A stretch of DNA of 64,000 nucleotides from an uncultured Candidatus Actinomarina sp. (GTDB lineage Bacteria; Actinomycetota; Acidimicrobiia; Actinomarinales; Actinomarinaceae). A program made the translations under genes and the position numbers. Below the pieces are notes generated by a model, which saw nothing but the letters and a program-made list of their open reading frames with translations, had not been told where the DNA came from and searched no databases. How positions within the stretch are numbered: position 1 is the stretch's first letter; every line of letters begins with the position of its first letter. The DNA lies in NCBI GenBank assembly GCA_902593795.1, contig CACJJR010000002.1, positions 124,001-188,000 of the forward strand, read 5' to 3'. This document shows positions 9,865 to 13,954 of the stretch, piece by piece.

Positions 9865-10668
9865 TTAACTCTTAGCTACTTTACCTTTAATTATCCTATT
9901 TCTAATTGAAGCTGATATTGCGTCTGCAACAAGGACCAAAACAATTGTACATATTAAAACTGTGCCAGCTCTTGGAAAATCTCTGAACCTTAATTGATTT
10001 ATTAATTCCTGACCAACTCCACCAGCACCAATTACTCCTAAAACAGCTGACGCTCTTAAGTTAATTTCAAAACGATATAACCAATATGAAGTTATTGTTG
10101 GCATTACTTGCGGTATAACACCAAAAATTAATTCGTTAATTTTAGACCCTCCAGATGATTTTATAGCTTCAAGAGGTCCCTCATCTATTCCTTCTATAAC
10201 TTCAGATGATAATTTACCCAATGTCCCTATAGAGTGTATTCCTAAAGCAAGTGTTCCTGTAAAAGCACCTAATCCAGTTATAGGTAGAAACACAAATGCC
10301 AAGATTAATTCCGGAAACGCTCTTATTGCATTCAATATTTGTTTTGTAATTCTGCTTACTGCTCCAGCTGCAACATTATGGGCAGCTAAGAATGAAATAG
10401 GAAAACTAAAGATAGCACCAATTACTGTTCCAGCCCATGCAATAAAAAGTGATTCAAAAACTTTAGGTATGATCCTATCAAAAGCTTCTTGACTTGTATC
10501 TAAAGGAAACATAGCACCCACTAAAATACCGATTTGTCTAGGAGCATCAATAATTCTTGCAATTGTTATTTCTAGTCCAGCAGCTGACCATAACGAGGCA
10601 AATATTATTGCTGATGTCAGAGTATATTTTAATATTTTGTGACTTAATGGCTGCTTTGGAATATTCAT
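9865..10668 (-). CDS. phnE: PhnE-family phosphonate/phosphate ABC permease (second copy)
   Basis: A 267-residue inner-membrane permease with about six membrane segments and the EAA-type loop (EGPLEAIKSSGGSKINELIFGVIPQ) that docks on the ATPase, plus the family motif GVIGAGGVGQEL. It overlaps the upstream permease gene by 4 nt. With the other permease it would form a heterodimeric channel. The exact phosphorus substrate is not set by the sequence; no C-P lyase genes are in view. Confidence 0.9.
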   Translation of the reverse strand: MNIPKQPLSHKILKYTLTSAIIFASLWSAAGLEITIARIIDAPRQIGILVGAMFPLDTSQEAFDRIIPKVFESLFIAWAGTVIGAIFSFPISFLAAHNVAAGAVSRITKQILNAIRAFPELILAFVFLPITGLGAFTGTLALGIHSIGTLGKLSSEVIEGIDEGPLEAIKSSGGSKINELIFGVIPQVMPTITSYWLYRFEINLRASAVLGVIGAGGVGQELINQLRFRDFPRAGTVLICTIVLVLVADAISASIRNRIIKGKVAKS

Positions 10669-11453
10669 AATATTCTTTTTCTAATCCAAACACTGAACTG
10701 TTCAATCAAAATAACTACAACAAGGATAATTACAATAATTGGTGAAATTCTATCAAACCTTAAGAAAATTCTCTGGGTCTCAATAATCCTACCTACACCA
10801 CCAGCTCCTACTAGTCCTAGAATTACACTTGCTCTAATACATAATTCAAAAATATATAAAAAATAAGCTGTAAAGTTTGGAAGAACCTGGGGTAACGCTG
10901 ATGTAAAAACAGTTTGATTATGTGAAGATCCAGTAGCTTTTGCTGCTTCCATTGGTCCTGGGTCAATACTATCTATAGTCTCAGATAATAATTTACCCAT
11001 AATTGCTAATGAAAACATAATTAAAGCTAATACGCCTGCAAAAGGTCCTATACCTACAGCAACTGTAAAAAGCATCGCCCAGAATAAATCAGGAATTGTT
11101 CGAACTAAATTTAAAAAAGACTTGTACAAAAAATATGAATATTTGTTTAAATTTGTAGCTCTTGAGGCATAAAAAGATAGCGGTAGTGCAAACGCACAAC
11201 CAACAATACTTGCAAGTATTGCTATTTGTACGGTTTCTACAAGAGCATCTGCTGTATTTTCCCAAGCCCAGCTCCACTTAGGGTTAAATAATGGATCTGT
11301 AACGATTGCTCTGTTTGCTAAATTTTCTGTAAAATCTTGTAAGTTAAAACCAACTCTTTGAAATGAAAATAATGTAAAAAGTATCGCAAAAGGTATTCCA
11401 ATTGTAACTAAATATGATGGAGGAGGTTTCTTTGGAATATTAGTCATTACCAA
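10665..11453 (-). CDS. phnE: PhnE-family phosphonate/phosphate ABC permease (first copy)
   Basis: A 262-residue permease with the same fold as its neighbour: an EAA loop (DPGPMEAAKATGSSHNQTVF) and LGLVGAGGVGRII near the C-terminus. It overlaps the ATPase gene by 14 nt and the second permease by 4 nt, so all three are translationally linked. Paired, non-identical PhnE subunits are common in phosphonate/phosphite importers. Confidence 0.9.
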   Translation of the reverse strand: MVMTNIPKKPPPSYLVTIGIPFAILFTLFSFQRVGFNLQDFTENLANRAIVTDPLFNPKWSWAWENTADALVETVQIAILASIVGCAFALPLSFYASRATNLNKYSYFLYKSFLNLVRTIPDLFWAMLFTVAVGIGPFAGVLALIMFSLAIMGKLLSETIDSIDPGPMEAAKATGSSHNQTVFTSALPQVLPNFTAYFLYIFELCIRASVILGLVGAGGVGRIIETQRIFLRFDRISPIIVIILVVVILIEQFSVWIRKRIL

Positions 11454-12207
11454 TTAAATCAGAAGACTTGATAGAACGACCATAAATATTTTCAAAATCT
11501 TCATCAGATACATCATCAACGTTTCCATCAAAGACTAATTTTCCATCCCTTAGACCGATTAGCCTATCACCAAACTCCTTAGCTAAATCAAGAAAATGTA
11601 AATTAACGATTGTTGTTATACCTAATTCTGTATTTATCTTTTTTAAATAATTCATCACAACTCTTGATGTAATTGGATCTAATGAGGCTACTGGTTCATC
11701 TGCGAGCATTACTTTAGGTTTTTGGGACAATGCTCTTGCAATGCCTACTCTTTGTTGTTGGCCTCCTGAAAGATTAGACGCTCTTACATAAGCTTTTTCA
11801 AGAATTTCTACTTGTTCTAACGCTTCGAACGCAAGTTGCTTTTGATCTTTAGGCCATAAACCAAATATAGATCTAAATGTTGAGATAGTACTTAATCTAC
11901 CTGTTAGTACGTTTTTTAATACAGTAGATCTATTAACTAAATTAAAAGTTTGAAATATCATACCTATTTGAGATCGTATATTTTTTAATTCTCTTTTTTT
12001 AGCATTTGTTACATCTTTTTCTTGTAAATAGACAGTTCCATTTGTAGGTTTAACAAGATTATTTATAGTTCTGAGAAGGGTTGATTTACCAGCTCCAGAG
12101 AGCCCAACAATAATTATAAAATCACCCTCTTTTATTTCTAAATCTAGATCTTTGAGAGCTTCAACACCACCAGGATAGGTGACACTTACATTTTCAAATT
12201 TAATCAT
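11440..12207 (-). CDS. phnC: PhnC ATP-binding subunit of phosphonate/phosphate ABC importer
   Basis: A 255-residue ABC ATPase from the ATG at 12207; a TTG 9 nt upstream is a less likely start. Walker A is GLSGAGKSTL, the Q-loop GMIFQTFNLVNRSTV is typical of PhnC, the signature is LSGGQQQRVGIARAL, Walker B is VMLADEPVASLDP, and the H-loop His follows in NLHFLDLA. It energises the two permeases. A strong hairpin lies immediately upstream, between this gene and phnD. Confidence 0.93.
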   Translation of the reverse strand: MIKFENVSVTYPGGVEALKDLDLEIKEGDFIIIVGLSGAGKSTLLRTINNLVKPTNGTVYLQEKDVTNAKKRELKNIRSQIGMIFQTFNLVNRSTVLKNVLTGRLSTISTFRSIFGLWPKDQKQLAFEALEQVEILEKAYVRASNLSGGQQQRVGIARALSQKPKVMLADEPVASLDPITSRVVMNYLKKINTELGITTIVNLHFLDLAKEFGDRLIGLRDGKLVFDGNVDDVSDEDFENIYGRSIKSSDLIGND

Positions 12208-12217
12208 TGTAGACAAA

Positions 12218-12251
12218 TTTTAACCGGGCTGTAGAAACAACCCGGTTAAAA
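12218..12251 (-). terminator. 11-bp inverted repeat between phnD and phnC
   Basis: The arms 12218-12228 and 12241-12251 are perfectly complementary (TTTTAACCGGG / CCCGGTTAAAA) with a 12-nt loop. It follows the phnD stop and precedes phnC. Such intercistronic hairpins in importer operons stabilise the binding-protein mRNA or partly terminate, giving more binding protein than ATPase. The T-run downstream is short, so partial readthrough is expected. Confidence 0.75.
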
Positions 12252-12259
12252 ATAATGTT

Positions 12260-13396
12260 TTATTCGTCGTAAAGTCCGAATTCTTCTGCAGCTTGTTTTA
12301 CTACATCAAATTCTGAATTGTCTGCCGGAACAACGTCAGTCCAACCGTATATTTCATCCATTACAGCAGCTCCTTCTTCAGTAGCCATATAATCTGATAA
12401 AATTTGATATATTTTATTCTTCATATCCTCTGGTAGGTCACTTCTTACAGCAACAACGTCATTTGGAATTTCATCTGATATTCCGATAGCAATAACTTTT
12501 TCACCAACATCTGGGTTAGTTTTTCTTAAAGTTCTTCTTGCATCATCATAAGTTACTCCAAATTTTGCATCACCGTTATATAGTCCGGAGATTACTCCAT
12601 CATGTGAACCAGCAAATACTTGAGTTATGTCTTTTTGGTAATCAATACCCATATTTTTTAACTGTAATGAAGGATATAGGTATCCAGATGTTGAACCTTC
12701 TTCAACAAATAATACTTTTTCACCCTTTAACACATTTAAGTCTGCCTCACATGCATAACCTGGGCTGACTGTTACATCAACACCATCAATATTTCTGACT
12801 TCGGGGATTTTACCGTCGTCACCAAAAGTCCAACCAACTTGTAATGCTTTAACATCTGGTGATTCAGTTTCAGAACCCAAAATGAGTTGTGGTACTCCAT
12901 CAATGTTTTCAAAAGCACCAATTACTGGTGGCGCATTACATACACTTGGATCTGTTGTCCAGAAGTTAGCATGGTAAGAACCAGAACCATATCTTACAAC
13001 CTTTGCTATTGCTTCTATTCGTGTTGGGAATACATTTAATGCATTTACATAACCTAATGTATTAAATGCTCCAATGTCAGCTTGACCAGAACCCATTGCA
13101 ACTAATAGACCTGAAAAGTCACTAGTTACGAATCCTTCAACTTCAATACCTAACCCATTAGTCAAAACTTCCATTAATGGTTTGATATTATCTTGAAGGT
13201 CAGCTTGTTCTGCACTTGGAATGAAACCAAAAGTTATTTTATCTAATGTCTCACCAACAGTAACTGCTGGTGAATCTAATGTCTCGGCCTCCTCAACAAC
13301 TGCAGGTTCTTCTACAGTTTCCTCATCAGCACTACCACCACAGGCAGCAAGAACCAATGATAAAACAAGTAGAATAAGAAATGATTTTTTAGTCAT
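12260..13396 (-). CDS. phnD: PhnD-family phosphonate/phosphate-binding lipoprotein
   Basis: A 378-residue extracellular solute-binding protein. A signal peptide ends in the lipobox LVLAACG (lipid Cys about 19), followed by an acidic linker. The body has phosphorus-binding family motifs: ITFGFIPSAEQ, GSGQADIGAFNTLGYV, VLFVEEGSTSGYLYPS (the phosphate-contacting loop) and GVTYDDARRTL. A strong ribosome-binding site (GGAGGAAA) precedes the ATG. First gene of the phnDCEE operon, whose ligand could be phosphonate, phosphite or phosphate. Confidence 0.92.
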   Translation of the reverse strand: MTKKSFLILLVLSLVLAACGGSADEETVEEPAVVEEAETLDSPAVTVGETLDKITFGFIPSAEQADLQDNIKPLMEVLTNGLGIEVEGFVTSDFSGLLVAMGSGQADIGAFNTLGYVNALNVFPTRIEAIAKVVRYGSGSYHANFWTTDPSVCNAPPVIGAFENIDGVPQLILGSETESPDVKALQVGWTFGDDGKIPEVRNIDGVDVTVSPGYACEADLNVLKGEKVLFVEEGSTSGYLYPSLQLKNMGIDYQKDITQVFAGSHDGVISGLYNGDAKFGVTYDDARRTLRKTNPDVGEKVIAIGISDEIPNDVVAVRSDLPEDMKNKIYQILSDYMATEEGAAVMDEIYGWTDVVPADNSEFDVVKQAAEEFGLYDE

Positions 13397-13459: not shown

Positions 13460-13942
13460 TTAAAAATTTGTTAAATCTATCTCACCGTAAGTTCGAGAAA
13501 TTATATTTCCATTTGTATCAAGCACCACAGTTATGGGTTGACCAACAATTTTAAAATAGTCTCTAAGTTCAGGTGTGGAAAATCCAATTCTAAGTTGTCC
13601 ATTTAAATTTTCATTAACCCAGCTCATTGTTGTTTCATACTCACTATGCGCTAAAGCTAAAACATCATATTCATCTGATAACTTAGCTAATTCATTTTCT
13701 ACGACAGGCAACTCCCGTCTACAGATACCTCAGTAATCGGCCCAAAATAGAATGATAGTTTTCTTATCTGTGATATTTTCTACAACGACAGCCTCAGTTG
13801 AATCTATGTATTTAAAAGAAGTTTCAGTAATAGCATCTGTTGACTCTGCAACAACGTTTAATGATTCACTTCCTAGTTCATTACTTGCTCCATATGAGCA
13901 TGAAATTAACAAAATAATGAATATTGGTAAATATCGTTTCAT
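13460..13942 (-). CDS. TlpA-like thioredoxin-fold lipoprotein with UGA at the first catalytic Cys (candidate selenoprotein)
   Basis: Read through one in-frame UGA, this is a 160-residue lipoprotein with lipobox LLISCSY, a thioredoxin-fold core and a late cis-Pro loop (VGQPITVVLDTNGNI). The UGA at 13732-13730 falls in FWADY-U-GICRRELPVVE, where TlpA/ResA proteins have W-C-x-x-C-R-x-E-x-P. So U replaces the first (nucleophilic) Cys and the second Cys is kept. A leaderless -10 (TATGAT) sits 6 nt before the ATG, and a hairpin after the UGA fits bacterial SECIS rules. The family would reduce or isomerise exported proteins. The alternative is a nonsense-mutated pseudogene; no sel genes are in this window. 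Confidence 0.72.
13700..13732 (-). promoter_or_regulatory. candidate bacterial SECIS element after in-frame UGA
   Basis: On the minus strand the UGA (13732-13730) is followed by 10 nt, then a 6-bp stem GACGGG/CCUGUC (13719-13714 with 13708-13703) closing a 5-nt loop AGUUG. The loop begins 17 nt after the UGA and has G as its second base. Known bacterial SECIS hairpins have the loop about 16-37 nt downstream with a G in the first two loop bases, so this fits, though the stem is short and has one G-U pair. Confidence 0.5.
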
Positions 13943-13948
13943 GATTTA

Positions 13949-13954
13949 ATCATA
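13949..13954 (-). promoter_or_regulatory. leaderless -10 element for the TlpA-like gene
   Basis: TATGAT on the minus strand ends 6 nt before the ATG at 13942, and no ribosome-binding site is seen. It argues that this UGA-containing gene is still expressed. Confidence 0.6.

Follow-up and report, generated by a model that had tools for sequence, protein, structure and literature searches.

The stretch of Candidatus Actinomarina DNA analysed here (64,000 nucleotides, the window) carries on its minus strand a frame, 13942..13460, with a single in-frame stop, TGA at 13732-13730, ahead of the TAA at its end. Read through the UGA, the product is MKRYLPIFIILLISC...FWADYUGICRRELP...LTNF. A signal peptide and a lipobox (LISC) lie upstream of the UGA, and the UGA itself falls within FWADY-U-GICRRELP, at the place where TlpA/ResA-type thioredoxin-fold proteins have WCxxC. 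An earlier note on this DNA had reported the single UGA in an otherwise open frame, and its coordinates and strand all proved correct when the sequence was read again. We assign the following features to the locus.

13460..13942, minus strand: putative gene of a TlpA/ResA-like selenolipoprotein, 160 codons long when the UGA is read through, ending in TAA
13730..13732, minus strand: UGA codon, predicted to be read as Sec, residue 71, where WCxxC has its first Cys; the 29/29 genus orthologues of the first set have TGA here, as do class-level relatives
13721..13723, minus strand: codon of the putative resolving Cys74 (UxxC), an invariant alignment column
13898..13900, minus strand: lipobox Cys15 after the signal peptide (LISC), an invariant column in genus and class
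13535..13537, minus strand: Pro136 of GQP at the thioredoxin-fold cis-Pro place, an invariant column; the cis-Pro role is presumed from the fold family
13703..13719, minus strand: putative SECIS hairpin, 5' arm GACGGG (13719-13714), loop AGUUG (13713-13709), 3' arm CCUGUC (13708-13703)
13949..13954, minus strand: TATGAT, a possible -10 box 6 nt before the ATG, a weak candidate read from sequence only

The -10 element claimed in the earlier note is unsupported: TATGAT is present 6 nt before the ATG, but a promoter scan found neither a paired -35 nor a sigma-70 pair there. Serving as a -10, it might give a leaderless or near-leaderless mRNA, which we suggest only weakly. Directly downstream, on the same strand, lie the genes of a phosphonate/phosphate-type (phn-type) ABC transporter (window 9865-13396, minus strand; a binding protein, an ATPase and two permeases), and the binding-protein gene occupies this place in most relatives. 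All 29 of the 29 genus loci have cinA beside the gene; 26 also have the phn binding-protein gene, which short loci may have cut from the others.

Conservation of the UGA in genus and class

Relatives within the genus came from Candidatus Actinomarina / OCS155 single-cell and metagenome assemblies. Each of the 29 orthologues first recovered, at identities down to 49%, has exactly one internal stop, and it is TGA. None of these 29 has Cys at the Sec71 codon, so an alignment of homologues at the UGA gives the Sec codon in 29/29 and Cys in 0. In the 28 that are full-length the UGA occupies one shared alignment column; an assembly gap cuts the remaining one upstream, its motif unchanged. All 28 full-length genes stop at TAA. 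The gene was not found in 6 of 35 genus genomes, all six of them incomplete assemblies (60-82%). The recurrence of the TGA in independent single-cell and metagenome assemblies means that it is not a read error of one assembly, and the relatives show no other internal stop and no frame break. With an in-frame UGA that its orthologues share, standing where a redox-active Cys would be, the gene has one of the marks of a bacterial selenoprotein.

We take Actinomarina to belong to the class Acidimicrobiia (GTDB). In a wider search of the class, the best matches (at least 95 bits) of 25 genomes, spread over six other families, likewise contain one TGA. The sequences read from 22 of these 25 genomes (5 early and 17 later) share the motif FWAEW-U-xxC, once as FFWAEW, and the lipobox Cys15 is invariant in all 24 sequences aligned from genus and class. 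The extra TAA flagged in two genomes is not internal, their sequences reading on to a normal C-terminus. Another family of the class has a tandem pair of Sec TlpA-like genes (locus L135 of genome G139, C28:3200-5700), each with its UGA and a hairpin of the same type.

Median dN/dS over all genus pairs is 0.46 before the TGA and 0.28 after it, and in five close pairs the ratio lies at 0.04-0.2 on both sides. These values indicate that purifying selection acts on both sides of the TGA.

Conservation of the hairpin downstream of the UGA

Numbered from the U of the UGA, the 5' arm of the hairpin spans nt 14-19, the loop nt 20-24 and the 3' arm nt 25-30, with 16 nt between the UGA and the loop. The earlier note had the stem begin 17 nt after the codon; the 6-bp stem and the AGUUG loop are real, but it is the loop, not the stem, that starts at the 17th nucleotide. 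Published rules for bacterial SECIS elements call for a loop of 3-9 nt, a stem of 4-16 bp, a G in the first two loop positions, a UGA-loop distance of 16-37 nt and a minimum free energy of -7.5 kcal/mol or lower (PMC13188914). The claimed fit to these rules holds for the window gene (AGUUG, 6 bp, 16 nt, -10.9 kcal/mol), and 3 of 200 shuffled sequences fold equally well. Some genus hairpins are near the published energy threshold, at -7.2 to -7.6 kcal/mol.

The stem was then compared with a codon-preserving null in which synonymous codons were drawn at the window's codon usage (the first set held 23 genus sequences). Over 26 distinct genus sequences, 156 of 156 stem pairs form against 93.5 +/- 4.4 in the null, and the stem is complete in all 26 against 0.38. 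The 22 sequences from other families are much richer in G+C than the genus; there, 130 of 132 pairs form (null 91.1 +/- 4.5) and 21 of 22 stems are complete (null 1.6). Pooled, 286 of 288 pairs form over 48 distinct sequences, with compensatory changes at several pairs, and when the partner is slid by 1-3 bases the count falls from 286 to 134-180.

Two pairs illustrate how the stem is kept. Pair 3 is C-G in 39 sequences and G-C in 9, and the G-C form goes with REELPL, as opposed to RRELPV or RQELPV, coupling an Arg-to-Glu to a Val-to-Leu change. Pair 1 is G-C in 40 sequences and A-U in 6; in the A-U form Arg becomes Gln or Lys, and the Val codon mostly shifts synonymously from GTC to GTT. All these counts take the sequences to be independent, and relatedness inflates the first control, but given the codon shuffle and the range of families chance is unlikely to account for the conservation, and the comparison indicates that the hairpin is selected beyond the protein sequence. 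The gene set thus offers a case of mRNA structure constraining protein sequence, in which amino acid changes in the stem are paired and the hairpin is kept.

Selenocysteine machinery and other selenoproteins of the host

The source genome (1.07 Mb in 11 contigs, 88.9% complete) contains all four of selA, selB, selC (tRNA-Sec) and selD, whose presence the earlier note had made a check on its reading. The tRNA-Sec scores 75.4 bits, bears the anticodon UCA and matches the Rfam model over its full length. SelA scores 377 bits (326 bits with PF03841), and selB follows it directly in a tandem at L050:7245-10216, its product combining an EF-Tu domain with the SelB winged helix PF09107. At 205 bits SelB lies below the NCBIfam cut-off of 242; it is full length, adjoins selA, and its winged helix is above its own cut-off. 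SelD (373 bits; L051:8814-9839, C1:258814-259839 in the genome) itself has an in-frame TGA at the catalytic position, in GSG-U-ACK. The stem-loop after this UGA, CUCUCC-CAA-GGAGAG, departs from the usual rule for bacterial SECIS elements in lacking a G at the first two loop places. Across the genus, a tRNA-Sec above 70 bits occurs in 34 of 35 genomes, and the exception (G002, 78% complete) still carries the UGA-containing AhpD-like gene.

The AhpD-like (PF02627) selenoprotein gene lies outside the window, at locus L096 (C4:29200-31000 of the same genome), with its UGA at C4:30171. Its motif is NECEY-U-IRAH (CxxU); a match was found in 11 Actinomarina genomes, all 11 of which have the TGA, and a stem of the UCUCC-GGUC-GGAGA type is conserved downstream. 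Together with selD it supplies the further UGA-interrupted genes with downstream stem-loops that were to be looked for, and the genome would encode at least three selenoproteins: the selenolipoprotein, the AhpD-like protein and SelD.

Searches for additional members were negative. The DsbA family gave no match in 12 genus genomes, and searches of the genus for the AhpC-TSA, molybdopterin (formate dehydrogenase) and glutaredoxin families turned up none interrupted by a TGA. Formate dehydrogenase was considered as the reason for the Sec machinery and rejected, the sole molybdopterin match being a protein of about 780 aa with no stop that we take for NADH dehydrogenase subunit G. An unbiased scan for UGA genes, in which about 0.42 Mb of the genome was compared with 0.78 Mb of a relative, yielded no coding candidate beyond the AhpD-like and selenolipoprotein genes; it was partial and missed selD, whose relative was perhaps outside the stretches taken. 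The other conserved TGAs that it raised had the look of antisense frames, of tRNA regions, or of a stop with a start after it.

A natural cysteine counterpart

Cys homologues exist, as an orthologue in the close relative G056 and as Cys paralogues in the source genome itself. The G056 orthologue (locus L121, C28:213300-215000) has TGC at the Sec codon, FWAEWCPKCNVEMP, and retains 3 of the 6 stem pairs. The best tRNA-Sec score in G056, 47.3 bits, is within the range of ordinary tRNAs elsewhere in the same search. G056 therefore appears to be a natural Sec-to-Cys replacement with no convincing tRNA-Sec, and decay of the hairpin would be expected after loss of Sec. At locus L059, a Cys TlpA-like gene adjoins the gene of a DsbB/BdbC-like membrane protein.

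Fold and family of the protein

The Pfam thioredoxin and AhpC-TSA models match the selenolipoprotein weakly. An AlphaFold model built from the window and locus sequences has a pLDDT of about 90 or higher over residues 41-150, and its best matches among solved structures are Etrx1, ResA, DsbE and CcmG, at sequence identities of about 15-22%. By spacing, Sec71, Cys74 and Glu77 fall on ResA Cys74, Cys77 and Glu80, residues named in the matched ResA mutant structures. The proposal that the UGA takes the first-Cys place of WCxxC, with the second Cys and the fold intact, is borne out by the invariance of Cys74 and Pro136 and by the matched thioredoxin fold. The protein thus has the marks of the TlpA/ResA-like group cd02966, namely the thioredoxin fold, a WCxxC-type site with Sec for the first Cys, and a Pro at the cis-Pro place. 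Its scores fall below the curated NCBIfam cut-offs for ResA (NF002854, 37 against 170 bits) and TlpA (NF047696, 28 against 230 bits) and below that of NF041054, WAxxUGC_long (25.8 against 300 bits). Since it reaches none of these models, we name it a TlpA/ResA-like selenolipoprotein, neither ResA nor TlpA. Fold and motif suggest a TlpA-like function, and the signal peptide with the invariant lipobox Cys15 predicts a membrane-anchored, extracytoplasmic protein.

Proposed mechanism and alternatives

The conserved UGA, the selected hairpin, the complete Sec machinery and the fold family, each step supported by sequence, lead us to read 13942..13460 (minus strand) as almost certainly a real selenoprotein gene, in which we infer Sec insertion itself. 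SelB and Sec-tRNA-Sec would decode UGA codon 71 by way of the 6-bp SECIS hairpin within the coding sequence, and the product would be a secreted, lipid-anchored TlpA/ResA-type thioredoxin-fold protein. Sec71 would serve as the nucleophilic first Cys of WCxxC and Cys74 as the resolving thiol, with Glu77 and Pro136 completing the site. Judged from sequence and model, extracytoplasmic disulfide reduction is the most likely activity: on the outer face of the cytoplasmic membrane the protein would reduce disulfides or oxidised thiols, its presumed substrates. The selenolate of Sec71 would attack the substrate, form a selenenylsulfide with Cys74 and be reset by a membrane electron donor, the presumed partner.

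The alternative that survives best accepts Sec insertion and sees in the protein a cell-surface peroxidase or peroxide-sensing redoxin instead of a disulfide reductase. Sec lends itself strongly to peroxide chemistry, an AhpD-like protein is the other functional selenoprotein, and the AhpC-TSA and Redoxin models are almost as good a match as the thioredoxin models. The UxxC on a WCxxC frame, however, is not the TxxU of peroxiredoxins, and ResA, Etrx, DsbE and CcmG lead the fold matches; we regard a peroxidase as unlikely, though worth serious weight. It is very improbable that termination at the UGA is itself the function, with a short peptide made when selenium is scarce: the truncated 70-codon ORF would still have its lipobox, but conservation is stronger beyond the UGA than before it (dN/dS 0.28 against 0.46).

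Still less credit can be given to genome-wide reassignment of UGA (for example to Trp) or to near-cognate read-through inserting Trp or Cys. UGA is a rare stop, ending 4 of 50 long window ORFs against 37 for TAA and 9 for TAG. Against reassignment, the conserved phn permease at 11453..10665 ends in UGA, the UCA anticodon sits on the tRNA-Sec with its end-to-end Rfam fit, two other genes have UGA at the SelD catalytic residue and the AhpD-like CxxU position, and the genome's three Cys TlpA paralogues are without UGA. A pseudogene made by nonsense mutation, or a sequencing error, would leave the lone TGA in an open frame as the trace of one mutation, but its probability is negligible: the TGA recurs in all 29 genus orthologues, which come from independent assemblies, the matching genes of 25 genomes in other families have one TGA each, purifying selection acts downstream of it, and the hairpin is selected beyond the protein sequence; the earlier argument that a random nonsense mutation is improbable is sustained far beyond chance by the UGA in 29/29 and the stem in 26 distinct sequences against 0.38.

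Significance and comparison with known systems

The selenolipoprotein reading places Sec use in a marine surface-water actinobacterium that has been described as highly streamlined; the Actinomarinales genome paper makes no mention of selenium (PMC7771536). A literature search joining Actinomarina and selenocysteine found no report, most subscription papers being outside its scope. In a data set with Acidimicrobiia among its members, SelA and SelB were noted in numerous sponge-symbiont bins from various phyla (PMC5649159). Sargasso Sea DNA yielded, in 2005, 4 Sec thiol-disulfide isomerase-like (UxxC), 27 AhpD-like (CxxU) and 28 SelD sequences (PMC1088965), Trx-like 1 (321 sequences) and AhpD-like 1 (299) are among the commonest marine selenoproteins in GOS (PMC2398784), and a 2026 catalogue lists cd02966 in UxxC and UGC forms, with Sec thiol-disulfide isomerase-like proteins in its Table 1 (PMC13188914). 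The earlier expectation that Sec use would be a surprise here accordingly holds only in part: metagenomes had already revealed the UxxC family and abundant Sec use in ocean surface water (PMC1088965, PMC2398784, PMC13188914), without naming the host. What is new is this host, together with a Sec lipoprotein widespread in the class; the UxxC and AhpD-like families are not.

UGA genes are easily missed, as standard annotation calls truncated ORFs, and the interest of the selenolipoprotein lies in the clarity of the demonstration and in the host. We put at about even the chances that a Sec lipoprotein of several families in the class was kept through the extreme streamlining of Actinomarina (no Cys version being found among the 29 orthologues), that with the AhpD-like protein and SelD it pays for the Sec machinery in about 1.1 Mb, and that Actinomarina could be a major source of marine 'Trx-like 1' and 'AhpD-like 1'. 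If true, one of the smallest free-living cells would be tied to dissolved selenium. A full Sec pathway serving very few proteins in about 1.1 Mb bears on Sec retention in streamlined cells, and its presence in Actinomarina on selenium as a nutrient of ocean surface water.

With ResA, TlpA, DsbE (CcmG) and Etrx, the selenolipoprotein shares the fold, membrane anchoring, the WCxxC frame, a Pro at the cis-Pro place and a Glu three residues past the second Cys. It differs from them in having Sec for the nucleophilic Cys, in its identity of about 15-22% and in that cytochrome c maturation genes are not beside its gene. NF041054 (ResA-like WAxxUGC_long) is also Sec-containing and ResA-like but differs by its UGC motif and its 354 positions. 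The AhpD-like (CxxU) protein and Sec-SelD, known from marine metagenomes (PMC1088965, PMC2398784), are encoded in the same genome and are not homologous to the selenolipoprotein. GOS 'Trx-like 1', COG0526 (PMC2398784), is possibly of the same kind. The closest likeness, drawn by description, is to the Sec thiol-disulfide isomerase-like proteins (cd02966, UxxC; PMC1088965, PMC13188914), which have a TlpA-like fold in common with it, Sec first in UxxC and a SECIS directly downstream. The published UxxC proteins come from metagenome contigs and reads, mostly without an organism, whereas here the family gains a host, a lipoprotein nature, a genomic context, conservation within its class and SECIS covariation.
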